In this document: one piece after another, positions 25 to 12,012 of the stretch | Position numbering within the stretch: position 1 is the stretch's first letter | How the letters are laid out: each line of letters begins with the position of its first letter | DNA from: Bacteroidia bacterium | GTDB lineage: Bacteria > Bacteroidota > Bacteroidia > B-17B0 > Aurantibacillaceae | NCBI GenBank assembly: GCA_016787785.1 | Contig: JAEUTO010000009.1 | Span: 124,001-188,000 of the forward strand | Direction of reading: 5' to 3' | Length of the DNA: 64,000 bases | The notes under the pieces: generated by a model | Told to the model about the DNA's origin: nothing | What the model saw: the letters and a program-made list of their open reading frames with translations, nothing else | The model's database searches: none | Made by a program: the position numbers and the translations under genes

Positions 25-528
25 TTAACTAAATATCTTTTTTTCTTCTTTTGAGCAGGATTTTGAACTCAACATGTATTCTTTTATGCGGTTTTTTAGA
101 TCCAGATCTTCCAGGTTATTATAACCGGTAATAATAACTTTTTTATCTTCCGATATTTTTCCTCTGTATCCAAGGAAAGCAGGGGCATTTGTCTGTACGC
201 AAAAGCGGAGGAAACACAATTCAACATTTTTTGGATCATTTTCAATCGCAGCATCTAGTAGATCTTTGCCTTTAATAAAATAACTTAACTTATAGTAAGG
301 ATTAAAATCAAAATTTGCCTTGATCATGTAAGACATGCCTTTATAGCCTTCAGAGAGTGAGCGCTCGATCTTTAAGTTAGCTTGCATCATTTTATAAAAT
401 GTTTCCGCATCTGCCCTATTGGTAGACGCTTTGTAGTATAATTCTCTAATCTTTACTATGTCAGTATTCGCAGCTACCGTTGACAATGGTACTAAGAGAA
501 AAAGAATAAATTTAAGTAAAATTCTCAT
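25..528 (-). CDS. TPR-like secreted protein of the carotenoid operon
   Basis: Unrecognised protein of about 167 residues, third gene of the crtI-crtB unit. I start it at the ATG at 528, which overlaps the crtB stop as ATGA, rather than at an ATG ten codons upstream; the 528 start places a clear signal peptide (MRILLKFILFLLVPLSTVAA) at the N-terminus. The rest is helical and TPR-like, with a segment around 'AAIENDPKNVELCFLRFCVQ' that reads like a TPR helix pair. Overlap with crtB suggests translational coupling and a role linked to pigment synthesis or its membrane placement, but that is inferred from position only. No catalytic motif is visible. Confidence 0.75.
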   Translation of the reverse strand: MRILLKFILFLLVPLSTVAANTDIVKIRELYYKASTNRADAETFYKMMQANLKIERSLSEGYKGMSYMIKANFDFNPYYKLSYFIKGKDLLDAAIENDPKNVELCFLRFCVQTNAPAFLGYRGKISEDKKVIITGYNNLEDLDLKNRIKEYMLSSKSCSKEEKKIFS

Positions 529-1361
529 AACATATTTAATTGGTGGCGTATCATACATTCAAACATCAAGCCAAATTTTTGCGCATTGTGTATTCTAATC
601 CTTTCGTTTAAGATCCGGTGTGCGGGTAATGATTTGATTTTATTGAAGAGATTTTTATAGTAATAATAGGCCAGGTAAACTCCCATTCTTGAATCTGGCG
701 GAAGTTGTTTTATACCAAGCAAAGCTTGTTTAAAATCTTTTTCAATATCTTCTTCTATATTTTTTTTGCTTTGGGCATCAAATGAATTGATCTTTACACC
801 CGGGAAATAAATGCGGCCTAAAATTTCAAAATCGGCTTTTGCGTCCCTTAAGAAATTAACTTTTTGGAATGCAGATCCTAAATTTTTAGCAAAAGGTTTA
901 AGGCTATGATATAGCTCGTCATTTCCTTTTACAAATACGCGTAAACACATTAAGCCAACAACCTCTGCCGAACCTAAAATGTATTTCTCATAATTTGGTT
1001 GATCATAGCTTACCTTTTCAAGATCCATTTCCATGCTTATAAGGAACGAATCAATTAACTCCCATTCAATGTTATAATCGTGTACTACTTTTTGAAACGA
1101 ATTTAAGATGGGGTTAAGGCTTATTTTTTCAGAAATTGCGCAAATTGTTTCATTCCTGAATTTTTCAAGTAATACTTTTTTATCGTAACCATGAAATGAA
1201 TCTACAATTTCATCGGCAAAGCGCACAAAACCATAAATTGAATAAATGGGGTCATGTAACTTTTTATTAAGAAATTTTATCCCCAGAGAAAAACTTGTGC
1301 TGTATTCCTGAGTTACCAATTTGCTGCACTTAGCAGAAACATTATCAAATAGCTGTTTCAT
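525..1361 (-). CDS. crtB: phytoene/squalene synthase family, likely phytoene synthase CrtB
   Basis: Condenses two geranylgeranyl diphosphates to phytoene, the first committed step of carotenoid synthesis. The 278 residues contain both aspartate-rich motifs of the trans-isoprenyl head-to-head synthases: DEIVD at 50-54 and NFLRDAKAD at 169-177 (R172, D173, D177). Length is normal for the bacterial enzyme. Its start overlaps the crtI stop (ATGA at 1358-1361) and its stop overlaps the next gene, so the three genes are one tightly coupled unit. Assignment to phytoene rather than squalene synthesis rests on the adjacent crtI. No GGPP synthase or lycopene cyclase gene lies in the window. Confidence 0.93.
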   Translation of the reverse strand: MKQLFDNVSAKCSKLVTQEYSTSFSLGIKFLNKKLHDPIYSIYGFVRFADEIVDSFHGYDKKVLLEKFRNETICAISEKISLNPILNSFQKVVHDYNIEWELIDSFLISMEMDLEKVSYDQPNYEKYILGSAEVVGLMCLRVFVKGNDELYHSLKPFAKNLGSAFQKVNFLRDAKADFEILGRIYFPGVKINSFDAQSKKNIEEDIEKDFKQALLGIKQLPPDSRMGVYLAYYYYKNLFNKIKSLPAHRILNERIRIHNAQKFGLMFECMIRHQLNML

Positions 1362-2836
1362 GATCCTGCTTTTAGGTTTTTAATTAATTCCTGAGCTGCA
1401 ACCTGCCCGGATACTATAGAAGGCGGCACACCGGGACCAGGAACGGTAAGTTGACCTGCATAAAAAAAGTTTTTTATTTTTTTATTTTTTATACTTGGTT
1501 TAAGGTTTGCTGTTTGCATAAGTGTGTTAGCGAGTCCATAAGCATTGCCTTTGTATGAATTATAATCTGCAACAAAATCTTTAACACAATAGCTTTTGGT
1601 AAATACAATATTATCTACAATGTTAGCGCCCGTAAATTTTTCAAGCCGCTTCATCAGAATGGAAAAGAATTCCTGGCGAATTGAGCCATTGTCTTCAAGT
1701 CCTGCTGCAATAGGCATTAGTATAAATAAATTCTCCATGCCTTCCGGCGCAACTGATGGATCTGTTTTTGAAGGGCAGCAAACATAAAATAATGGTTTGC
1801 TTGGCCATTTTGGATCGGTGTAAATTTCTTTGGCATGCAGCGGAAAATCTGCATCAAAAAAAAGATTATGATGTTCCAGGCGGTTTAACTTACGATTAAT
1901 TCCAATGTAAAATATCAAACAAGAGGGAGCAAAGATTTTGCTTTCCCAATACTTATCAGAATAATTTCTGTGTTCCTCGATCAGTAGTTTTTTTTCTACG
2001 TGGTTGTAATCTGCACTTGCAATCATACCATCTACAATGATCTTCCTTGTATTAGTACTTAGCTCTATCTTAGAATTTTGTTGGCTGCGGATCGCATTTA
2101 TAGGTTCAGAAGTAAAATACTCAACCCCACGATCTTTTCCGATCTGCACCATAGCGTCTACCAGTTTTTTAAATCCACCCATTGGATAAAACGTTCCTTG
2201 TTTCAAGCCTGCATAATTCATCAGGCTGTAAAGTGCTGGTGTATTTTGAGGCATGGCCCCTAAAAACAAAACCGGGAACTCCATTAATGAAATTAATTTT
2301 TCATTCTTAAAATATGATCTAACGTGTTTGCTAAACGATGAAAAAAGCTGAAGCCGCAACGCACCCTTTATGGTTGTTGGGGTAATTAGTTCACTCCAGG
2401 ATAAACCCGGCTGATAAATTAGATTGTTAACGCCAACTTCATATTTATAAGCGGCTTCTTCCATAAATTTTTTAAGTTTATTGGCACTACCAGTTTCATA
2501 TTGCTCAAATAGATCTAAAAGTTCATCCCAGTTGGCCGGCACTTTTATGATCTCTTCATTATCATAAATTACCTGAAAGCCCGGATCGAGTTTTACAAGC
2601 TCATAAAAATCTGAAGTCTTGTGCCCAAAGCGAGCAAAAAAACGTTCAAAAACATCGGGCATCCAATACCAACTTGGACCCATATCAAAAACAAAACCTT
2701 GCGATTCAAATTGGCGCATGCGTCCACCAAGTTGTTCGTTCTTTTCAAAGACCATTACTTTATGTCCTTCAAGTGACATAACAGCAGCCGCGCTTAACCC
2801 GCTAATACCTGATCCTATGATGCCAATTGTCTTCAA
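1358..2836 (-). CDS. crtI: phytoene desaturase CrtI
   Basis: FAD-dependent desaturase converting phytoene towards lycopene. The 492 residues open directly with the dinucleotide-binding motif GSGISG (8-13), then the EKNEQLGGRM segment, and close with the family signature AGQLTVPGPGVPPSIVSGQ typical of CrtI. Length is normal. The only plausible start is a TTG at 2836: a stop codon lies a few codons upstream in frame and no ATG or GTG precedes the FAD motif. First gene of the leftward carotenoid unit; transcription should come from the promoter at 2875-2904, which overlaps a putative CarH operator, so light-regulated repression is the natural expectation. Confidence 0.94.
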   Translation of the reverse strand: MKTIGIIGSGISGLSAAAVMSLEGHKVMVFEKNEQLGGRMRQFESQGFVFDMGPSWYWMPDVFERFFARFGHKTSDFYELVKLDPGFQVIYDNEEIIKVPANWDELLDLFEQYETGSANKLKKFMEEAAYKYEVGVNNLIYQPGLSWSELITPTTIKGALRLQLFSSFSKHVRSYFKNEKLISLMEFPVLFLGAMPQNTPALYSLMNYAGLKQGTFYPMGGFKKLVDAMVQIGKDRGVEYFTSEPINAIRSQQNSKIELSTNTRKIIVDGMIASADYNHVEKKLLIEEHRNYSDKYWESKIFAPSCLIFYIGINRKLNRLEHHNLFFDADFPLHAKEIYTDPKWPSKPLFYVCCPSKTDPSVAPEGMENLFILMPIAAGLEDNGSIRQEFFSILMKRLEKFTGANIVDNIVFTKSYCVKDFVADYNSYKGNAYGLANTLMQTANLKPSIKNKKIKNFFYAGQLTVPGPGVPPSIVSGQVAAQELIKNLKAGS

Positions 2837-2858: not shown

Positions 2859-2890
2859 TTTGTTTAATAAAATACAAATATAGTTAAACA
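2859..2890. promoter_or_regulatory. putative CarH/LitR operator at crtI
   Basis: TTTGTTTAATAAAAT at 2859-2873 followed by GTTAAACA at 2883-2890. The same 15-mer and 8-mer occur at the same 24-base offset at 5507 and 5531. Here the 8-mer sits in the spacer between the -33 and -7 elements and the 15-mer just beyond -7, a position suited to repression. That the neighbouring MerR protein binds it is inference. Confidence 0.6.
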
Positions 2891-2904
2891 TAATGATTTT
2901 CAAA
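2875..2904 (-). promoter_or_regulatory. crtI promoter, Bacteroidota type
   Basis: On the minus strand the region reads TTTG (complement of 2901-2904), an 18-base spacer, then TATATTTG (complement of 2875-2882), matching the Bacteroidota consensus TTTG-N17-23-TAnnTTTG exactly. It lies about 40 bases before the crtI TTG start. Confidence 0.7.
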
Positions 2905-3044
2905 TATTTCATGAATACTAATAGTATCAATACAATAGTATTTAACAAAAATTAAGTAGCATGGGCATTTCTGGGAATGCAATAAAAACTAAAATCCGCT
3001 AGTGGTGGATCTAAAACAGAATGTTGATTTGCGGTGTAGCTATA

Positions 3045-3923
3045 CTACAAATAGTTTAAAAGGTCTTTTGGATGGTATATGACCTCGGCATTCATTTTTT
3101 TCTGCAGATACTCTGTGGTTGCAGATTGGCCGCTTACTATCAGTTTATTGCCATCACCAAGCTGCAGATTATTTTTAAGATCAGAATAAACGGTTTTTGG
3201 ATCTTGTGGTACGGTAAAAAAAGTCAGAATAAAATTAGGCCTTATTTGTTTTAACACTAATGAGATATTCTCGTACGGCACATCTTGTCCCAAATAGATG
3301 GTTTCATGACCTTTTGAACGTATTATGTAATTGGCGAATAGCAGGCTTATATCATGCATTTCGCCGGGAATTAACAATAAAAGAAATTTCTTCTTTTTGT
3401 GTTTCGCAAACGGCAATCCGTCTGTAGCAGCCATTATTTTTCTTTTGATGAGGCAGGATGCAAAATGTTCCTGCGCAGGACTAACGTCATTTACAGACCA
3501 CAATAAACCTATTTTATTCAATAAGGGATAAAAAACATTTAACATGGCATCAAAAAGGCCAAATCTGTTTATAACTGCCGAATACGTTTTTTCAAAGTTT
3601 TGCTCATCAAAATCTATCATTGCGCTTAACAGGTCATTAATAAAGGTTGCACAGATCACATCTTCCTGTTTACTCGACTGAGATTCAAGAATTTTTAAGT
3701 GTAGGTCTTTATCGCTGAGTTCGGCAATTTTTGAGATCTTGTAACCATTAGATAATAGTGTGGAAACGTTCAACAGCTTTTTTACTTGCTCATCGTTGTA
3801 TCTCCGGTAATTGGTATTCGTGCGGTCTGGTTCAATAAGGTTATATCTTTTTTCCCATATTCGAATTGTATGGGCTTTAATACCGGTTAACTGCTCTAAT
3901 TCTGTAATCTGATATAGTCTCAT
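3045..3923 (-). CDS. carH: MerR-family, B12-binding light-sensing regulator (CarH/LitR class)
   Basis: 292 residues: MerR winged helix at 1-70, a four-helix-bundle segment at about 85-170, and a cobalamin-binding domain at about 178-292. The photoreceptor signature W-x9-EH is present as W142...E152-H153, and the cobalamin axial ligand motif ExH is E188-M-H190. In the well-studied family member these features capture adenosylcobalamin; dark tetramers repress carotenoid genes and light breaks them. The residue after W142 is Ser where Thermus CarH has the His that ligates cobalt after photolysis, and the Gly after DxHxxG is Ser. Last gene of the pterin unit, 23 bases after the DUF2452 gene. No B12 riboswitch is seen upstream. 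Confidence 0.88.
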   Translation of the reverse strand: MRLYQITELEQLTGIKAHTIRIWEKRYNLIEPDRTNTNYRRYNDEQVKKLLNVSTLLSNGYKISKIAELSDKDLHLKILESQSSKQEDVICATFINDLLSAMIDFDEQNFEKTYSAVINRFGLFDAMLNVFYPLLNKIGLLWSVNDVSPAQEHFASCLIKRKIMAATDGLPFAKHKKKKFLLLLIPGEMHDISLLFANYIIRSKGHETIYLGQDVPYENISLVLKQIRPNFILTFFTVPQDPKTVYSDLKNNLQLGDGNKLIVSGQSATTEYLQKKMNAEVIYHPKDLLNYL

Positions 3924-3946
3924 CTTGCGTTTTAAACGTTGCTAAT

Positions 3947-4387
3947 TTAAACAAATAAACCTTTAAAGTTATTAATAACTTCCCATGTATGATCACTTAA
4001 TAAGCGAGCTGAATTTACATATTCCAGCATTTCTGATCTTGACTTTCCCCATTCGTCAGGTGCTATCATCAATAGTTTAAATTCGTTACCTTTTTTATAA
4101 AGATGATAGATGTGGCCAACTAATGGTTCAAAGGCAATTGCGGCGGTATATATTTTTTCGCTTATTTCAATACGTTGTTTTATCTCGTTTGCCTGGGTCA
4201 CCAATAATTCAACCTGCTTTTGGATCTGCAACAAGTGCATGTCGGTTTGCTCACGCATAGCTGAAAGTGCTTTTGATTTTAATTTACCAAGGTCTTCTGG
4301 TTTAATTACTATGCTTCCGATGGTGTGCGGATAGGCAAGGAGGCCGGGATTTTCGGCAACTTTGTCTTTATCAATGGGGTTTATCAT
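3947..4387 (-). CDS. DUF2452 family protein
   Basis: 146-residue protein recognised as DUF2452 from its N-terminal pattern (ID-x-DKVAENPGLLAYPHTIGS), the central EQTDMHLLQIQKQVELL helix, and the EWG...LL-x-DHTW C-terminus. Function is unknown. Probably cytosolic, with a coiled-coil-like central helix at about 45-85. It lies 6 bases after folE and 23 bases before the carH-like regulator, so it is co-transcribed with pterin genes. Families of this kind recur next to photolyase and carotenoid genes in Bacteroidota, in line with a role in the light response, though nothing in the sequence shows the chemistry. Confidence 0.85.
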   Translation of the reverse strand: MINPIDKDKVAENPGLLAYPHTIGSIVIKPEDLGKLKSKALSAMREQTDMHLLQIQKQVELLVTQANEIKQRIEISEKIYTAAIAFEPLVGHIYHLYKKGNEFKLLMIAPDEWGKSRSEMLEYVNSARLLSDHTWEVINNFKGLFV

Positions 4388-4393
4388 GGCTAC

Positions 4394-5113
4394 TTAAATT
4401 TTTATATTTAAATAATTAAGAAATTCGTTTTTTGTTTGCTCTTCATTAAATTTACCACCATAAAATGAGGTTACGGTAGATGAGCTGTCATCTTTTATTC
4501 CCCTTGAAGAAACACATAAATGCCTGGCTTCGATAACTACCACAACATCTTCTGTATGCAAAATATTTTTTAGTTCGTTGGCAATTTGCATTGTAAGACG
4601 CTCCTGTACCTGCGGCCGCTTGGCATAGTAATTTACAATGCGGTTTAATTTTGACAAACCAATCACCTTACCATTTGATATATAAGCAAGGTGAGCTTTG
4701 CCAAAGAAAGGCACAAAATGATGCTCACAATTGCTATAAAAAGTAATGTTCTTTTCAATAAGCATTTGATTGTATTGATATTTATTATCAAACAATTTTA
4801 TCGAAGGTTTATTGGCAGGATCTAATCCACAGAAGATCTCTTTCACATACATTTTTGCCACCCGGTGTGGCGTTCCACTTAAGCTATCGTCTTTCAGGTC
4901 AAGGCCCAATGTCTCCATTATTTCTTTAAAATGAGTTTCAATTTTTTTTATTTTCTCATCATCACTTAAGTCAAAAGCGTTCGCCAACATTGGTGTTTCA
5001 AGCGATGAGCTTATGTGTTCATTGCCAATTTCTTCTATCATATTTTCATTAACTAGAATTTCCTTTTTATGCAGGGTATTCAACATAGTTTCTTTCTGTT
5101 TCATATAATACAA
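4394..5113 (-). CDS. folE: GTP cyclohydrolase I FolE
   Basis: Converts GTP to 7,8-dihydroneopterin triphosphate, the entry to folate and pterin synthesis. The zinc ligands are C129 and H132 (in CEHH) and C200 (in HLC), with the same 71-residue Cys-Cys spacing as the E. coli enzyme; other hallmarks are GTPHRVAKM, IGLSKLNRIV and QERLTMQIA. The start is uncertain: the first ATG at 5113 gives 239 residues and overlaps the upstream gene by 47 bases, while an ATG at 5041 gives a 215-residue protein with a core of normal size. Its placement between a PTPS-like gene and a light regulator suggests a dedicated supply of pterin, perhaps for photolyase/cryptochrome antennae. Confidence 0.95.
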   Translation of the reverse strand: MYYMKQKETMLNTLHKKEILVNENMIEEIGNEHISSSLETPMLANAFDLSDDEKIKKIETHFKEIMETLGLDLKDDSLSGTPHRVAKMYVKEIFCGLDPANKPSIKLFDNKYQYNQMLIEKNITFYSNCEHHFVPFFGKAHLAYISNGKVIGLSKLNRIVNYYAKRPQVQERLTMQIANELKNILHTEDVVVVIEARHLCVSSRGIKDDSSSTVTSFYGGKFNEEQTKNEFLNYLNIKI

Positions 5114-5483
5114 TCTTTAGTTCATATTTAGTATCGATCTTTGCACGAAGAATGTTGTAGATCACAATAGCAATATTCTCGGCGGTAGGATTAAGCGCTT
5201 TAAAATCGCTCACATCAAGATTTAAATTTTTATGATCAAATCTTTCAATTACCTCTGTTTTAATTATATCGCTTAACATCTTCAGATCTATCACATATCC
5301 GGTAACAGCATCTACAACACCCGTAACTTTAACGATCAATTCATAATTGTGTCCGTGATAATTATCATTATTACATTTTCCGAAAACAACTTTATTCTTT
5401 TCGGCGCTTAGCATCGGATTGTTAAGGCGATGAGCGGCATTAAAATGCTCTTTTCTAAAAACTGAGACCTTTTTTTCAACCAT
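5067..5483 (-). CDS. 6-pyruvoyl-tetrahydropterin synthase / 6-carboxytetrahydropterin synthase family
   Basis: 138 residues with the three zinc histidines H18, H43 and H45 (YHGHNY), catalytic Cys C37, the DHKNLN motif (D83, H84) and the substrate-binding ETE near E128. The sequence CNN-DNYHGHNY and the VTGYVIDL and DHKNLN stretches resemble eukaryotic-type PTPS more than QueD, which favours 6-pyruvoyltetrahydropterin formation from dihydroneopterin triphosphate made by the adjacent folE. No queC/queE is nearby, which argues against a queuosine role here. First gene of the leftward pterin-regulator unit; its start codon lies within the operator region shared with the divergent unit. Confidence 0.85.
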   Translation of the reverse strand: MVEKKVSVFRKEHFNAAHRLNNPMLSAEKNKVVFGKCNNDNYHGHNYELIVKVTGVVDAVTGYVIDLKMLSDIIKTEVIERFDHKNLNLDVSDFKALNPTAENIAIVIYNILRAKIDTKYELKIVLYETERNYVEYPA

Positions 5484-5539
5484 TTGTTCAACAAAAGTAC
5501 AATTTATTTGTTTAATAAAATGATTTATTTGTTAAACAA
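5483..5539. promoter_or_regulatory. divergent operator region with three TTTGTT boxes
   Basis: Box 1 is the perfect 13-base palindrome TTTGTTCAACAAA at 5483-5495, box 2 is TTTGTTTAATAAAAT at 5507-5521, and box 3 is TTTGTTAAACAAG at 5528-5540. Boxes 2 and 3 start 21 bases apart, about two helical turns. Boxes 2 and 3 match the crtI promoter in sequence and spacing. Likely binding region for the CarH-like repressor, by inference. Confidence 0.6.
5492..5499 (-). promoter_or_regulatory. -7 element of the pterin/carH unit
   Basis: On the minus strand this reads TACTTTTG, an exact TAnnTTTG. It lies about ten bases before the ATG at 5483, so the transcript would have a very short leader. No convincing -33 TTTG is visible, which fits a weak or regulated promoter. 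The element overlaps palindromic box 1. Confidence 0.4.
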
Positions 5540-5559
5540 GATAAAATAACCGAAATTTG
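5528..5559 (+). promoter_or_regulatory. candidate promoter of the photorepair unit
   Basis: TTTG at 5528-5531, a 20-base spacer, then GAAATTTG at 5552-5559 (one mismatch to TAnnTTTG), 14 bases before the ATG at 5573. The -33 element is part of operator box 3. Confidence 0.4.
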
Positions 5560-5572
5560 ATAAAAATTACTT

Positions 5573-6037
5573 ATGCTCCATAAAATAGAAAGTACTCAGC
5601 ATATAAAAAGCGATATGTCTACCGTTTGGGATTTTATAAGCTCACCCAAAAACCTTGCAGTTATAACACCTGCTTACATGAATTTTACTGTAATAAATGA
5701 AGTAAAACCTATTGATAAAATGTATGCCGGGCAGATAATTGAATATCATGTTTCACCTGTTCTTGGAGTTAAACTTAAATGGGTTACCGAAATAAGTCAT
5801 GTTGAAGACCATTATTATTTTGTGGATGAACAACGCTTTGGGCCATACACATTCTGGCATCACAAGCACTTTATTAGAAAGGTTGATGATGGTGTAGAAA
5901 TGGTTGATATAGTGCACTACAAATTACCCTTTGGCTTTATTGGCAGGTTAGTAAATACACTTTTTGTAAAAAAGCAGTTAAAAGAAATATTTAACTACCG
6001 CCACAAAAAAATAGATGAACTTTTTAACGCTAAGTAA
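5573..6037 (+). CDS. SRPBCC (START-like) ligand-binding family protein
   Basis: 154 residues matching the SRPBCC/START-like fold seen in Bacteroidota: an initial strand with 'ESTQHIKSDMSTVWDFIS', the 'NLAVITPAYMNF' segment, a central hydrophobic sheet and a long C-terminal helix with a FNYRHKKIDEL end. Such proteins bind hydrophobic small molecules in a deep cavity; the ligand is unknown, and a carotenoid-pathway or flavin/pterin molecule would suit the context. First gene of the ten-gene rightward unit; its stop overlaps the next start as TAATG. No signal peptide, so cytosolic. Confidence 0.82.
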   Translation: MLHKIESTQHIKSDMSTVWDFISSPKNLAVITPAYMNFTVINEVKPIDKMYAGQIIEYHVSPVLGVKLKWVTEISHVEDHYYFVDEQRFGPYTFWHHKHFIRKVDDGVEMVDIVHYKLPFGFIGRLVNTLFVKKQLKEIFNYRHKKIDELFNAK

Positions 6038-6396
6038 TGGAGAAAGAAAATGATCTGCATTGTTATTATAGTGGATTGCCGTCGCCACTGGCATATCTTA
6101 ATGTTCAGGAAGAAATTCCACTCACTATAAACGCGAGTGATGTTGATCGTATAATAGAAATGGCCTGGGAAGACAGAACTACTTTTGACGCCATTAAAAT
6201 TCAGTTCGGTTTAAACGAAGCTGCGGTAAAATCGATCATGAAAAAGAATTTGCGGTTTAGCAGCTATAAATTGTGGCGAAAACGTGTGGAGAGTTGCAAA
6301 ACAAAGCATGCATACAAAAGAATTAAGAGTATAAACAGATTCAAAAGTAATTTACAACGCACTATTTCAAATAATAAAATATCCAAAAGAAAATGA
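6037..6396 (+). CDS. DUF2805 / TIGR03643 family protein
   Basis: 119 residues. The central part (about 40-95) is recognisable as the TIGR03643/DUF2805 family: MAWEDRTTFDAIKIQFGL, then KSIMKKNLRFSSYKLWRKRV. The core looks like a small helix-turn-helix fold rich in basic residues and could bind nucleic acid, but no function is established. Family members typically lie beside photolyase/cryptochrome genes, as here. It overlaps both neighbours (TAATG upstream, ATGA downstream), which implies coupled translation. The N-terminal 35 residues and the Lys/Arg-rich tail exceed the usual core. Confidence 0.85.
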   Translation: MEKENDLHCYYSGLPSPLAYLNVQEEIPLTINASDVDRIIEMAWEDRTTFDAIKIQFGLNEAAVKSIMKKNLRFSSYKLWRKRVESCKTKHAYKRIKSINRFKSNLQRTISNNKISKRK

Positions 6397-7082
6397 GTAA
6401 AACCTTTTTATTTGCAGGGGCTTCCAGTACTATAGCCATACAAGCAGCCTTACTTTTAAAAGATAAGGGCCATAAAATTATCGGCATTAGCAGAAAAGAT
6501 AAAGGCGATTCCTATGATGAATTTTATCAAGTTGAAAAATACGACTTCTCTGCTTTACCTGATATTGCTGATACTATTGATGGCATTGTTTATTTTCCGG
6601 GAACAATAAATTTAAAGCCTTTTGCGAGGATTACGCCAGCAGAATTCATAAAAGATCTTCAAATAAACTGCTTAGGCGCTATTGCCTTTGTACAGGCTTA
6701 TTTAAACAATTTAAAAAAATCCAAATATGCATCAATTGTGTTTATAAGTTCTGCTGCCGTAAGTATTGGATTGCCCTTTCATTCATCTATTTCAATGGCT
6801 AAAGGTGGACTCGAAGGGTTATCAAAAGCTTTAGCAGCTGAGCTGGCGCCAGCGATCAGGGTAAATTGTGTGGCACCTTCTTTGGTAAATACGCCACTGG
6901 GAGATAAGTTTGTTAATACGCCCGAAAAAATGGAACAAATGCAAAAGAGAAACCCACTCCGTCAGGTGGGCAATCCCATTGATGTTGCTAACGCAATTAC
7001 TTTTTTATTATTAGAAGAGTCAGCTTGGATAACAGGTCAGGTTCTTGCGGTTGATGGCGGAATGAGCACAATTAAAAACTGA
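6393..7082 (+). CDS. short-chain dehydrogenase/reductase family protein with altered active site
   Basis: 229 residues with a classical SDR fold: N-terminal nucleotide-binding segment FAGASST (7-13), catalytic-Ser region at S119-S120, the RVNCVAPSLVNTPL stretch (156-169) and the C-terminal DGG (221-223). The active-site Tyr of YxxxK is missing: the motif reads I133-S-M-A-K137. The TGxxxGIG motif is also altered to GASSTIA. It may be a specialised reductase using other residues, or a non-catalytic member. In a unit facing PTPS and folE it could act on pterins (sepiapterin- or FolM-like), but the lost Tyr weakens that. Four-base overlap with the previous gene. Confidence 0.88.
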   Translation: MSKTFLFAGASSTIAIQAALLLKDKGHKIIGISRKDKGDSYDEFYQVEKYDFSALPDIADTIDGIVYFPGTINLKPFARITPAEFIKDLQINCLGAIAFVQAYLNNLKKSKYASIVFISSAAVSIGLPFHSSISMAKGGLEGLSKALAAELAPAIRVNCVAPSLVNTPLGDKFVNTPEKMEQMQKRNPLRQVGNPIDVANAITFLLLEESAWITGQVLAVDGGMSTIKN

Positions 7083-7086
7083 AAAT

Positions 7087-7740
7087 ATGGAAACACACAT
7101 TACCTACGAGAGTCTGATGGCAATGGAAAAACGGCAACGAACCAATCTGGTTAATTCTACAGGGGGGTTTAAAAGCGTTTGTTTGATCGGGACAAAAGAT
7201 AAAAAAGGCAAAACTAATTTAGCGGTTTTTAATTCCATTACCCATATTGGCGCTACGCCGCCATTGATAGCATTTATTGTAAGGCCCGACTCTGTTGAGA
7301 GGCATACCTTATCTAATATTCTCGAAACCGGTTGTTACACTATTAATCATTTGAATGAAAAAATTTATAAAAGGGGACATCAGACATCAGCAAGATATCC
7401 AAAGGAAATTTCAGAGTTTGCAGCTGTTGGATTAAAAGAAAATTATAAGGATGGTTTTTTGGCGCCGTATGTTGAGGAAAGTAATGTTCAACTTGGTATA
7501 CAATTCAAAGAGCGGTTAGATCTTACCATCAATGGTACAATTTTGATCATCGGGCAAATAGAGCATTTGTATTTTCCAAAAAACTGCTTGTATGATGATG
7601 CATTTCTTGATCTTGAGAAAGCAAACACTGTTACTTGTTCGGGTTTAGACAGTTATCATAAAACCCAACGCTTGGAACGGTTAAGTTATGCAAAGCCTGG
7701 CATAGAATTAGAGGCTATAATAACTGAACACAGCGATTAG
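7087..7740 (+). CDS. flavin reductase family protein (FMN-binding split barrel)
   Basis: 217 residues of the DIM6/NTAB flavin-reductase-like family: N-terminal GGFKSVCLIGT strand, FNSITHIGATPPLIAF, then VRPDSVERHTLSNI and the YTINHL strand that line the FMN site. Members reduce flavins with NAD(P)H or bind FMN as oxidoreductases. Located four bases after the SDR gene in the photorepair unit; supplying reduced flavin to photolyase and cryptochrome is an attractive but unproven role. Length is typical and no signal peptide is present. Confidence 0.87.
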   Translation: METHITYESLMAMEKRQRTNLVNSTGGFKSVCLIGTKDKKGKTNLAVFNSITHIGATPPLIAFIVRPDSVERHTLSNILETGCYTINHLNEKIYKRGHQTSARYPKEISEFAAVGLKENYKDGFLAPYVEESNVQLGIQFKERLDLTINGTILIIGQIEHLYFPKNCLYDDAFLDLEKANTVTCSGLDSYHKTQRLERLSYAKPGIELEAIITEHSD

Positions 7741-7790: not shown

Positions 7791-8258
7791 ATGAATAAAG
7801 CGGTTAAACTTATACTTTGTATTGCACTTACATTATCAGTTGGCGCAATTGGTGGAATAGCCACCGCATCGGGCGTTAATAACTGGTATTTAACACTTAA
7901 TAAGCCGGTATTTAATCCGCCCAATTATTTATTTGGCCCGGTGTGGACGCTGCTATACATTTTAATGGGCATTTCGTTTTACCTAATACTTCAAGCTCCT
8001 AATCCTGTTTTAAGAAAACGAGCCATACTAATTTTTTGTACGCAATTGGTTTTAAATTTTTGCTGGAGTTTTTTGTTTTTTAAATTTCAATTATTAGGCC
8101 TGGCATTTATTGAGATAATTTTTATTTGGTTTTCAATTATACTAATGATAATTACTTTTTATAAGATCAATAAAACGGCTTCCTTAATACAAATTCCTTA
8201 TTTACTATGGGTAACCTTTGCAAGCATACTAAACGGAAGCATTTGGGTTTTGAATTAA
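7791..8258 (+). CDS. tspO: TspO/MBR family membrane protein
   Basis: 155 residues with five hydrophobic helices and the family signatures: NNWYLTLNKPVFNPPNYLFG between helices 1 and 2, followed by PVWTLLYILMG, and a Trp-rich helix 3 (FCWSFLFFKF). TspO proteins bind tetrapyrroles and other planar ligands and, in photosynthetic bacteria, affect light- and oxygen-dependent pigment genes. Its presence beside carotenoid, cryptochrome and B12-photoreceptor genes fits a light or oxidative-stress role at the membrane. A 50-base gap separates it from the flavin reductase, without a clear terminator. Confidence 0.93.
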   Translation: MNKAVKLILCIALTLSVGAIGGIATASGVNNWYLTLNKPVFNPPNYLFGPVWTLLYILMGISFYLILQAPNPVLRKRAILIFCTQLVLNFCWSFLFFKFQLLGLAFIEIIFIWFSIILMIITFYKINKTASLIQIPYLLWVTFASILNGSIWVLN

Positions 8259-8271
8259 ATAAAAGAAATAG

Positions 8272-8997
8272 ATGAACTTTTTAAACGCTAATTGGGAAAA
8301 TATTGTGATGGCAAATTATGTAGTTCCAACAAATGTTTTGCAGTCATATTTACCAGCGGGTTGCGAGCTCGACCTCTACAATGGCTTGGCCTATGTTAGT
8401 TTGGTGGGTTTTATGTTTAAGAGAACTAAATTGTTTAAAATACCAATTCCAATCCTGGGTACATTTGAAGAAATTAACCTTAGATTTTACGTAATACGAA
8501 AAGAGGGAGACAGGATCAAACGTGGTGTTGTATTTATTAACGAAACTATTCCGTATAAAGCGGTAGCCTGGGTAGCAAATAAATTATATAAAGAACATTA
8601 TACAACAATTCCAACCAAAAATTTTATTTCAGAAAACGCGTCGCAAAAGAAAATACATTATCAATGGCAGATTAATAAAGAGTGGAATAGTATTTATGTT
8701 GAATCTTCGGTAGAAAAGTTTAAAATGCAAAAGAACAGCTTTGAGGAATTTATACTTGAGCATTATTTTGGTTATACAAAAATTGACAATTTCGAAACAG
8801 AAGAGTATAAAATACACCATGCGCGTTGGGATATAAATAAAATTACCAACTACAAGATAAATTGTGATTTTGACAAAATGTATGGCAACCACTTTTCGTT
8901 TTTAAATAATGTTCAACCACATTCCGTTTTTCTCGCCGAAGGCTCTCCTGTTTCGATTGAGTGGAAACGCCAACGTATTAAATTAAACGCTACATGA
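8272..8997 (+). CDS. DUF2071 (YqjF-like) family protein
   Basis: 241 residues matching DUF2071: [14 protein letters not shown] at the N-terminus, then [26 protein letters not shown] and LRFYV, a pattern shared with the acetoacetate-decarboxylase-like fold. Function unknown. It follows tspO by 13 bases and overlaps the DUF2256 start as ATGA. The 24 bases across its start codon (8268-8291) are almost the same as 23 bases near the end of the SRPBCC gene (6011-6033), read in another frame. Confidence 0.88.
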
Positions 8998-9148: not shown

Positions 9149-10702
9149 GTGAACGTCACAACATCAGATATAAAAATTTTACGCTTAATATTAGGTGATC
9201 AGCTAAACATAAACCATTCATGGTTTAAAAATGTTGACGAAAATGTGACCTATGTTTTAATGGAGGTTCGCTCTGAGACGGATTATGTTTGGCATCACAT
9301 TCAAAAGGTAGCGGCTTTCTTTGCGTCAATGCGGGAATTTGCCGAGCTATTAAAAAGTAAGGGATATCAGGTTGTTTATATAAAATTAAATGACAAAAAA
9401 AATAGACATTCTTTTCGGGGCAATTGTGATCACTTAATTAAAAAATACGCTTTTAGCCATTTTCAATATCAATTACCTGATGAATATCGGCTCGATGAAA
9501 TAATTAAAACGTATTCAGCCTCTATTCACATATCAACTACTGTTTTTGATACAGAGCATTTTTTAACATCACGAAGTGAATTAGGTATTTTTTTTGAAGG
9601 AAAGAAATTATTTCTGATGGAAAGTTTTTACCGCTATATGCGTAAGAAGCATAATATTTTAATGACAGGCTCTGAACCGTTAACCGGCAAGTGGAATTAT
9701 GATGACGCTAACCGGAAGAAATTGCCTGTTAAACATAAAGCCAGCCCGCCATTTGTTTTTAGCAATAATGTAAATGATATAATTAGTGATTTAAATAAAA
9801 CCGACGTTAAAACAATAGGCACAATTGAGCCAGAAAATTTTATATGGCCAATAAACCGCGAGCAATCGCTGCAACTATTAGACTTTTTTTTACAAGAATG
9901 CCTTCCTCTTTTTGGCACTTATCAGGATGCGATGACGCCGCAGGATTGGTCTTTATATCACTCGCGCTTGTCTTTTTCATTAAATTGTAAGTTAATTTCC
10001 CCTCTTGAAGTTATTAATAAAGCTGTCAAAGAATGGGAAAATCGTCCGAATGAAATTGAATACAATCAGTTGGAGGGTTTTGTACGTCAGATCATTGGAT
10101 GGAGAGAATACATGCGGGGTATTTATTGGCTTAAGATGCCGGATTATGCTTCTCTTAATTATTTTGATCATCAAAATAAATTACCCGAGTGGTATTGGAC
10201 GGGTAAAACAAAAATGAGTTGTTTAAAGCACTCAATTGGTCAGTCATTGAATTATGCATATGCACATCATATTCAGCGGTTAATGATCACCGGAAATTTT
10301 GCATTATTAGCAGGAGTTCATCCCGACGAAGTAGATAAATGGTATTTAGGAATTTATATTGACGCTTTGGATTGGGTAGAGATAACAAATACCAGGGGCA
10401 TGAGCCAGTTTGCAGATGGCGGGATCGTTGGTACAAAACCTTATGTAAGTTCAGCGGCGTATATTGATAAAATGAGCCATTATTGTAAAACTTGTTATTA
10501 CAATAAAGCAAAAAAAACGGGAGATAAAGCTTGTCCGTTTAATAGTTTATACTGGAATTTTTATAACAGGCATGAGAATAAATTAGCTGCCAACCCGCGC
10601 ATTGCTATGATGTATGATGTTTGGCGGAAAATGAAACCGGATATAAAAGCTGAATTATTAGTACAAGCCGATTATTACTTAAGAAATATAAACAATCTGT
10701 GA
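9149..10702 (+). CDS. phrB: iron-sulfur cryptochrome/photolyase, prokaryotic (6-4) photolyase type (FeS-BCP)
   Basis: 517 residues. The N-terminal antenna domain opens with LRLILGDQLN, and the FAD-binding C-terminal half holds four cysteines, C358, C446, C449 and C462. Their spacing equals that of the [4Fe-4S] ligands in Agrobacterium PhrB (350, 438, 441, 454). Family enzymes repair (6-4) photoproducts with FAD, a 6,7-dimethyl-8-ribityllumazine antenna and an Fe-S cluster. The start is GTG at 9149, two bases after DUF2256. Its TGA overlaps the ATG of the DASH cryptochrome as TGATG, so the two flavoproteins are made together. Confidence 0.93.
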   Translation: MNVTTSDIKILRLILGDQLNINHSWFKNVDENVTYVLMEVRSETDYVWHHIQKVAAFFASMREFAELLKSKGYQVVYIKLNDKKNRHSFRGNCDHLIKKYAFSHFQYQLPDEYRLDEIIKTYSASIHISTTVFDTEHFLTSRSELGIFFEGKKLFLMESFYRYMRKKHNILMTGSEPLTGKWNYDDANRKKLPVKHKASPPFVFSNNVNDIISDLNKTDVKTIGTIEPENFIWPINREQSLQLLDFFLQECLPLFGTYQDAMTPQDWSLYHSRLSFSLNCKLISPLEVINKAVKEWENRPNEIEYNQLEGFVRQIIGWREYMRGIYWLKMPDYASLNYFDHQNKLPEWYWTGKTKMSCLKHSIGQSLNYAYAHHIQRLMITGNFALLAGVHPDEVDKWYLGIYIDALDWVEITNTRGMSQFADGGIVGTKPYVSSAAYIDKMSHYCKTCYYNKAKKTGDKACPFNSLYWNFYNRHENKLAANPRIAMMYDVWRKMKPDIKAELLVQADYYLRNINNL

Positions 10703-12012
10703 TGAAACGTTCAATTGTTTGGTTTAAAACTGATTTGCGCTTGCATGATAATGAAACGCTTGTTCGTGCAATAGAACAAAGTGATGAGGTTATTCCTGTT
10801 TATTGTTTAGATGACGATCATTTTAAGACAACAGAATTCGGCTTTAAAAAAACAGGAAATTTCCGGGCTCAGTTTTTACTGGAGTCATTAAAAGATCTGG
10901 ATTTGAACCTGCGAAAACTTGGATCGGGATTAATTATTGTAAAAGGAAAACCAGAAATTGAATTGTGTAAACTGGTTAAACAGTTTGAAGTAACTAAAAT
11001 TTTTGCCAAGCGGGAAGTGGCTTATGAAGAAAAACAGACTGAAGCATTAGTGGAAAAAGAAGTATGGAAACTTCATTGTTCGTTCGAAAGCTTTAGCACA
11101 AGCACACTCTATCATGCGGAGGATTTGCCTTTTTCTATAAAAGACATTCCGGATGTGTTTACTAATTTTAAACGACAAGTAGAGCACGAATCGTCTATCC
11201 GGCCCATATTTCAAAAGCCACTCAAAATTAAATCACCTGCTATTGCTCCAATTCAATTACCGCAGCTAAAAGAATTGGGTTTAGAAATACCGGTTACAGA
11301 TAAACGGGCCACTATAAAATTCAAGGGCGGTGAAAACGAAGGTTACAAACGACTAAATTATTATTTTTTTGAAACCCGGCATATCTCCACTTATAAGACT
11401 ACAAGAAACGGAATGTTAGGAGGCGATTATTCAACCAAATTTTCTCCATGGCTTGCCTTAGGCTGTTTATCGCCAAGAGAAATTTATAATGAATTAAAAA
11501 AATTCGAAGATCAATTTAAAGCAAATGATTCTACTTATTGGTTGGTATTTGAAATGTTATGGCGGGATTATTTTAGATTTATGATGAAAAAGTACAGGAA
11601 CAAATACTTTTTGCAAACAGGAATAAAGAACAGCGAAAACGGAGCTGCAGAATTTAATAAAGAGCTTTTGCAAAAATGGATGATCGGACAAACCGGCAAC
11701 GATTTTATAGACGCGAATATGCTTGAATTAAAGCAAACAGGTTTTATGAGCAACCGTGGCAGACAAAATGTAGCAAGTTATTTGTGTAATGATCTAAAGG
11801 TTGACTGGCGTTATGGAGCAGCCTATTTTGAGCAACAACTGATTGATTATGACGTATGCAGTAATTGGGGCAATTGGGCTTACCTGGCTGGTGTTGGAAA
11901 TGACCCAAGAGGCAAACGCTATTTTAATAGTGATAAGCAGGCGAAGGAATATGATCCAAATAACGTATATCAAAAATTTTGGCTAAATAACAGAGGTAAA
12001 AGTAAACATTAA
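10702..12012 (+). CDS. cry: DASH-family cryptochrome
   Basis: 436 residues from the ATG at 10702 (a GTG one codon earlier is possible but would remove the TGATG overlap). The Rossmann-like antenna domain begins KRSIVWFKTDLRLHDNETL. The FAD domain has the DASH-typical STKFSPWLALGCLSPREI, WLVFEMLWRDYFRFM and NRGRQNVASYL, then WGNWAYLAGVGNDPRGKRYF. DASH members bind FAD and a methenyltetrahydrofolate antenna and repair CPDs in single-stranded DNA or act in signalling. Folate antenna demand fits the co-regulated folE. Confidence 0.93.
   Translation: MKRSIVWFKTDLRLHDNETLVRAIEQSDEVIPVYCLDDDHFKTTEFGFKKTGNFRAQFLLESLKDLDLNLRKLGSGLIIVKGKPEIELCKLVKQFEVTKIFAKREVAYEEKQTEALVEKEVWKLHCSFESFSTSTLYHAEDLPFSIKDIPDVFTNFKRQVEHESSIRPIFQKPLKIKSPAIAPIQLPQLKELGLEIPVTDKRATIKFKGGENEGYKRLNYYFFETRHISTYKTTRNGMLGGDYSTKFSPWLALGCLSPREIYNELKKFEDQFKANDSTYWLVFEMLWRDYFRFMMKKYRNKYFLQTGIKNSENGAAEFNKELLQKWMIGQTGNDFIDANMLELKQTGFMSNRGRQNVASYLCNDLKVDWRYGAAYFEQQLIDYDVCSNWGNWAYLAGVGNDPRGKRYFNSDKQAKEYDPNNVYQKFWLNNRGKSKH

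Follow-up and report, generated by a model that had tools for sequence, protein, structure and literature searches.

Which regulator coordinates the carotenoid, pterin and photolyase genes that lie together in a 64,000-nucleotide stretch of a Bacteroidia genome (Aurantibacillaceae; contig JAEUTO010000009.1, positions 124,001 to 188,000; hereafter the window)? The original prediction proposed a two-part operator shared by the promoter of the phytoene desaturase gene crtI and the pterin/photolyase promoters, and a single light-controlled regulon under a CarH/LitR-type regulator encoded between the two sites. A CarH-type gene does lie there, at 3045-3923 on the minus strand. On comparison with related genomes, both sites are probably operators of this CarH-like protein, which would act as a dark-state, B12-dependent repressor with a new operator layout.

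Operator sites in the window and in the genome

The two-part site is exact as predicted. The sequence TTTGTTTAATAAAAT begins at positions 2859 and 5507 and is followed by GTTAAACA at 2883 and 5531, with 9-bp spacers that are unlike each other. When up to three mismatches are allowed, the composite pattern TTTGTTTAATAAAAT-N9-GTTAAACA matches the window twice and has no match in any of 100 shuffles. The 4.6-Mb genome contains these two perfect copies, one copy with two mismatches and one with three, compared with one match to the reversed control pattern. The genome scan that had been suggested for finding copies elsewhere therefore returned the perfect composite site only at 2859 and 5507, and its core in three perfect copies.

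This core, TGTTTAAY-N14-RTTAAACA, is a long-spaced inverted repeat that is identical when read on either strand. Judged from its sequence, the operator unit consists of two inverted arms separated by about two turns of the DNA helix. Each arm holds the TnnACA core reported for CarH half-sites, and the arms have opposite orientation; TTT/AAA flanks outside the arms are conserved in 141 sites, where the search pattern itself dictates the arms. The genome has three perfect cores, none with one mismatch and 39 with two, while the reversed control gave 50 matches with up to two mismatches. The chance of three or more sites in one genome is about 1.6e-5, as calculated from the reversed-pattern rate (4 hits in 87 genomes). 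The third perfect operator is located outside the window (genome G000, contig 14, 208346-208375; fetched locus L081, 3847-3876), 43 bp upstream of an open reading frame (ORF) for an extracytoplasmic function (ECF) sigma factor, with a photolyase gene behind it.

Other descriptions of the site were considered and dropped. The 13-bp palindrome TTTGTTNAACAAA, favoured at first as the unit, has an inner half that is only A/T-rich in 141 sites; with one mismatch it was found five times in the window against 2.13 expected, a count reached by 6 of 100 shuffles and thus near chance. A looser pattern, TGTTNAAYANA-N11-GTTNAAYA with one mismatch, brought no gain in the same genome (three forward and three control matches). 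The third box of the original prediction, at 5483, is present as a perfect palindrome, but its role as a part of the operator was rejected: it is kept in none of 11 loci of relatives, the closest having three mismatches. It sits 24 bp from the next box; the operator's own boxes are 21 bp apart.

Co-occurrence of operators and CarH-like proteins

CarH-like proteins were called at an E-value of at most 1e-30, a threshold that may also admit some other MerR-B12 proteins. The calls cover 87 genomes of the order and a 217-genome sample of the class Bacteroidia. Within the order, 55 of the 59 genomes with CarH have a perfect site, as does 1 of the 28 that lack CarH; the two groups carry 103 sites and one site, respectively, compared with four matches of the reversed control in all 87 genomes. 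The class sample gave 89 of 138 genomes with CarH against 1 of 79 without it (83 of 132 against 1 of 77 outside the own family), and 144 sites against 6 for the reversed control. Fisher tests, with kinship ignored, yield 3.5e-17 for the order and 2.1e-23 for the class.

The spacing of the arms is fixed. In 20 genomes chosen as site-bearing, a scan of gaps from N6 to N24 found N14 in 51 of 72 hits and any other gap in at most four; the 21 non-N14 hits equal the total of 21 in the reversed control (tallied by hand, then checked). With the CarH protein as the only query, 12 loci were retrieved, and in 11 of them box pairs at a distance of 21 bp precede pterin or crt genes. This result is not independent of the order set, as 9 of 43 CarH rows are duplicates and several metagenome-assembled genomes are common to both. 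The loose box-pair criterion used on these loci also returned further, weaker pairs, including one within carH (L013). In three class genomes with CarH and no perfect site (G142, G159, G170) there are two or three one-mismatch sites, 62-64 bp apart.

Content of the proposed regulons

For the order, 80 loci with 98 sites were fetched, four further sites being left aside. Of these sites, 44 are upstream of an ECF sigma factor gene, 28 upstream of pterin, photolyase or carH genes and 11 upstream of crt genes, making 83 of 98; the ECF calls here and below rest on BLAST similarity with an E-value of at most 1e-5, a criterion that other ECF factors could also satisfy. Nine of the 15 other sites precede a gene for a DUF4397 protein (L093, L103, L107, L111, L112, L142, L147, L149, L155), and such a gene also stands behind the operator in L195 and L199. 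All nine proteins are mutually similar, and a C-terminal secretion-system sorting domain was present in each of the three scanned with Pfam; from its sequence, the DUF4397 protein is a possible light-controlled secreted protein. In L128 an ECF site is masked by a long ORF call, and in L097 the site precedes photolyase genes 412 bp away. The remaining four of the 98 sites have no explanation: L082 (with a nitroreductase neighbour), L083, L095 and L138, the last one belonging to G060, the sole CarH-negative genome of the order that carries the site.

The class targets were studied in 40 loci from other families with 45 sites, 20 loci being chosen beside carH and 20 elsewhere. A gene of the reference set lies within 400 bp downstream of 38 sites, 26 of which precede ECF genes; by our count, all 22 sites beside carH and 16 of the 23 others have such a gene. 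Seven of the 45 sites have no explanation (L197, L201, L202, L204-L207). Six class loci (L184-L188, L192) have the gene order CarH-site-ECF-crtI.

The site thus recurs at the same promoters in relatives. The two outcomes that would have spoken against the original prediction, a motif common at unrelated promoters or one lost where the genes persist, were not observed, although 49 of 138 CarH-bearing genomes of the class sample, about a third, have no perfect site. A single regulon of carotenoid, pterin and photorepair genes with a shared operator under a CarH-type regulator is strongly supported by this sequence comparison, because the site co-occurs with CarH genome by genome, its spacing is fixed and the same promoters carry it; the light response would be a further property of this regulon.

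Operators are sometimes repeated. The fetched loci contain tandem operators at distances of 41-42 bp (nine pairs), 44 bp (one), 62-64 bp (three) and 34-35 bp (two). Those 41-42 bp apart at ECF genes are in L091, L125, L133, L134, L146, L150, L154, L156 and L159. Two consecutive ECF sigma factor genes stand behind one operator in L177 (2802-3933) and L178 (2774-3905). In L105 (3592-5443) the operator-linked ECF gene is followed by a gene for a protein that by eye resembles glutamyl-tRNA reductase, an enzyme of the haem/cobalamin pathway.

The CarH-like regulator

The regulator has 292 amino acids, with a MerR-type winged-helix N-terminal domain (PF13411, 1.2e-17) and a B12-binding_2 domain (PF02607); no Rossmann B12 family is among the Pfam matches listed for it. 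Its best matches by sequence among solved structures are Thermus CarH/LitR proteins. The AlphaFold model (mean predicted local distance difference test score 80, predicted template modelling score 0.59) has its best fold matches in the Protein Data Bank in Thermus CarH, 5c8e and 5c8d; the whole-chain root-mean-square deviation is large, which points to a different placement of the domains, and the cobalamin-binding domain taken by itself aligns to about 3 Å.

Conserved motifs were examined in 34 distinct sequences, comprising the window protein and those of the 12 CarH-fetched loci and the 30 best-matching order loci with duplicates removed, an alignment that leaves out the more distant CarH homologues of the order. 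The Trp-x9-Glu-His motif is kept in the window protein and in 33 of 34 sequences, and the lower axial His (ExH) in all 34. The residue equivalent to His132 of Thermus CarH is Ser, Thr, Gln, Ala, Ile, Val or Leu across the window protein and its 33 relatives. By sequence, the regulator is best classed as a CarH-like homologue and not as the CarH equivalog of NCBIfam. The genome has a cobalamin adenosyltransferase gene, so the cofactor could be made from cobalamin.

Promoter geometry and a possible mechanism

The overlap of the crtI site with a promoter, claimed earlier, was found again: a pair resembling -33 and -7 elements, TTTG-N18-TATATTTG, runs on the minus strand from 2904 down to 2875 and overlaps the operator. 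Here and in relatives we take TAnnTTTG and TTTG to be -7 and -33 elements by the Bacteroidota promoter consensus. At crtI sites, TAnnTTTG lies inside the operator at +7 or +8 in 8 of 10 contexts. At folE/queD sites it lies at +39 from the operator in 10 of 13 contexts, with an identical distance at queD of the window, and at ECF sites at +35 or +36 in 20 of 43. Before the SRPBCC-like gene it is within the operator at +15 in 7 of 14 contexts, so that arms and promoter elements overlap.

From these sites and contexts we infer DNA binding, dark repression, dependence on B12 and light, autoregulation and the transcription units, as follows. In the dark, the repressor with bound adenosylcobalamin would sit on TTTGTTTAAY-N14-RTTAAACAAA and block RNA polymerase; a polymerase block is suggested by the position of the operator relative to the -7 elements, as it contains that of crtI and lies just upstream of that of queD. 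Light would break the cobalamin bond and release the repressor, and the carotenoid, pterin and photolyase genes would be switched on. The carH gene, located behind queD and folE, would also be switched on by light (autoregulation), and through the contig-14 copy light would induce the ECF sigma factor and a second photolyase. The three operators would serve four transcription units: crtI-crtB, queD-folE-DUF2452-carH, the divergent photolyase genes, and the sigma factor with its photolyase. Tandem operators at ECF genes suggest arrays of bound repressor.

We lean slightly towards a broader interpretation, in which Bacteroidia have a class-wide CarH-type B12 light sensor with its own operator layout, a two-turn inverted repeat sometimes repeated at about 41-42 bp, placed above ECF, pigment, pterin, photolyase and secreted DUF4397 genes, and with a light step that lacks the His ligand of Thermus.

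Alternative explanations

Several observations weigh against a CarH-like, B12-dependent repressor at these sites. The residue equivalent to Thermus His132 is His in 0 of 34 sequences, and therefore the light step must differ from that of Thermus CarH; the NCBIfam CarH model scores the regulator at 97.7 bits, the cut-off being 400. Tandem 11-bp repeats of the form nnnnTnnACAn were not found, with a run of one at both window sites. A perfect site is missing from 4 of the 59 CarH-bearing genomes of the order and from 49 of the 138 in the class sample. Allowing one mismatch in 25 of these 49 gave 31 hits against 20 for the control, no clear gain, and the same search in 25 CarH-free genomes gave 27 against 35. 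The co-occurrence counts and tests take no account of kinship between genomes. Finally, the arms contain TTTG, and in 15 ECF contexts an arm forms TAnnTTTG (position -6); part of the arm sequence could be promoter.

The operator could instead belong to another regulator that travels with CarH, such as an accessory activator or repressor, or the ECF factor, which would then act on the promoter of its own gene. Sites adjoin the ECF gene more often than any other gene, both in the order (44 of 98) and in the class sample (26 of 45), and ECF factors found at an E-value of at most 1e-50 are confined to CarH-positive genomes (44 of 44). The dyad form of the site is, however, unlike that of a sigma-factor promoter, and its arms hold the TnnACA core of CarH half-sites. 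Moreover, CarH is the better predictor of the site, because 14 genomes with CarH and the site lack a close ECF orthologue, although two of them (G051, G052) have a diverged ECF factor beside it, and three genomes have the ECF factor without a perfect site. We consider another regulator unlikely.

A second alternative keeps the CarH-like protein on the operator and makes it insensitive to light or B12, as in Myxococcus CarA or a class II LitR with its LOV partner. The upper-ligand His of light-exposed Thermus CarH is missing in 34 of 34 relatives, and a Thermus H132A variant is described as mostly staying tetrameric in light, in a paper that also notes an earlier report of disassembly (PMC10442372). 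On the other hand, the Trp-x9-Glu-His and lower His motifs, kept in 33 and 34 of 34 sequences, are said to define CarH homologues (PMC8156234), and a Chloracidobacterium homologue with Arg at the place of His132 is reported to act as a cobalamin-dependent photoreceptor and has an anaerobic light-state structure, 8jbt (PMC11796333). An insensitive protein is improbable, and a light- and B12-dependent CarH-like repressor remains our preferred interpretation.

Chance, or ordinary AT-rich promoter sequence common to the two promoters, has a negligible probability: the arms are AT-rich and contain TTTG, a promoter-like element of Bacteroidota, but this explanation is refuted by the shuffles (0) and reversed-pattern controls (4 against 104 sites in 87 genomes, 6 against 144 in 217) and by the presence of the site in only 1 of 28 and 1 of 79 CarH-free genomes.

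Comparison with known systems

CarH proteins of Thermus thermophilus and Bacillus megaterium, which are B12-dependent repressors, are described as binding operators of three or four tandem 11-bp direct repeats (PMC9304148, PMC8156234). According to these descriptions, they share with the window system the MerR-type DNA-binding and cobalamin-binding domains, the Trp-x9-Glu-His motif, the lower His, a promoter-overlapping operator and the TnnACA half-site core (PMC8156234, PMC9304148). The differences are the two inverted half-sites 24 bp apart and the absence of His after Trp in the window system; the 11-bp register run in 143 sites is one in 138 and two in 5.

Class II LitR proteins of Pseudomonas (PplR1, PmlR2) are reported to bind T(G/A)TACA-N12-TGTA(C/T)A (PMC9758184), a pattern found in 0 of our 143 sites. 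They resemble the present system in having a two-box operator and a light regulon with photolyase, cryptochrome-like, GTP cyclohydrolase and further genes; unlike it, they are said not to serve in B12 binding and to be inhibited by a LOV protein in blue light (PMC9758184). A degenerate B12 site and a LOV partner are further marks of class II LitR; the cobalamin motifs are intact here.

Myxococcus xanthus CarH and CarA are likewise described as repressing carotenoid genes in the dark. There CarQ, an ECF factor, acts in a separate B12-independent pathway, in contrast to the operator here, which itself lies at the ECF gene. Inverted repeats were first assigned to Myxococcus CarA, and later data are reported to favour direct repeats (PMC9304148). 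CtMerR of Chloracidobacterium thermophilum (8JBT), which is among the structural matches, is a similar cobalamin-binding MerR-type protein without the His132 ligand; the residue at this position is also described as variable in other CarH homologues (PMC11796333). MliR of Bizionia was considered as a described homologue and set aside, as it is described without an effector-binding domain.

LitR/CarH-type proteins are thus already known to control genes for pigments, pterins and photolyases. As far as the open-access literature surveyed shows, three things appear to be new: the layout of the operator, the absence of the His, and a regulon that extends over the class and takes in an ECF sigma factor and DUF4397. 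The regulator, operator and regulon are concrete and testable, and the operator can be searched for in genomes. They would tie vitamin B12 to protection from sunlight in a large bacterial class and suggest a second DNA-binding geometry for photoreceptors of the CarH kind, whose cobalamin domains are reportedly used in optogenetics. No description of this operator, or of any CarH regulon of Bacteroidota, was found in our survey of the open-access literature, which had subscription papers mostly outside its scope and is weak evidence of novelty. For the genus Chryseobacterium, a member of this phylum, carotenoid production is reported to be induced by light, in a paper that leaves the mechanism open (PMC7064467).

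Features of the window

Table 1. Operators, promoter elements and genes at the carotenoid and pterin/photolyase loci, in window coordinates.
Feature	Position	Strand	Basis
Operator 1, crtI promoter, TGTTTAAT-N14-GTTAAACA	2861..2890		sequence; equivalent sites in relatives
Operator 2, between divergent queD-folE-DUF2452-carH and photolyase genes	5509..5538		sequence; relatives
-7-like element TATATTTG of crtI, within operator 1	2875..2882	-	sequence; TAnnTTTG of relatives
-33-like TTTG of crtI, 18 bp upstream of -7	2901..2904	-	sequence
-7-like element TACTTTTG before queD	5492..5499	-	sequence; same +39 distance in relatives
GAAATTTG, possible -7 of divergent photolyase genes	5552..5559	+	similar in several relatives by eye (weak)
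Third box of the original prediction, TTTGTTCAACAAA	5483..5495	+	present; not conserved among 11 relatives
crtB, squalene/phytoene synthase family	525..1361	-	domain match
crtI, phytoene desaturase	1358..2836	-	NCBIfam CrtID, over cut-off
carH-like regulator, MerR-type helix-turn-helix and cobalamin-binding region	3045..3923	-	domains, structure matches, motifs
DUF2452 protein	3947..4387	-	domain match
folE, GTP cyclohydrolase I	4394..5092	-	family matches
queD/PTPS-like, 6-pyruvoyl tetrahydropterin synthase family	5067..5483	-	Pfam over cut-off, NCBIfam below
First gene of divergent set, SRPBCC-like by eye	5573..6037	+	no Pfam or NCBIfam match; homologues adjoin operator in relatives
TIGR03643/DUF2805 protein	6037..6396	+	family matches
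SDR-type oxidoreductase	6393..7082	+	generic matches, none over cut-off among 25 matches listed
Flavin-reductase-like protein, label by eye	7087..7740	+	no NCBIfam match (Pfam not run)
TspO-like tryptophan-rich sensory protein	7791..8258	+	below NCBIfam cut-off
DUF2071 protein	8272..8997	+	domain match
Photolyase-related protein	9149..10702	+	PF04244 DPRP
DASH-type cryptochrome/photolyase	10699..12012	+	family match

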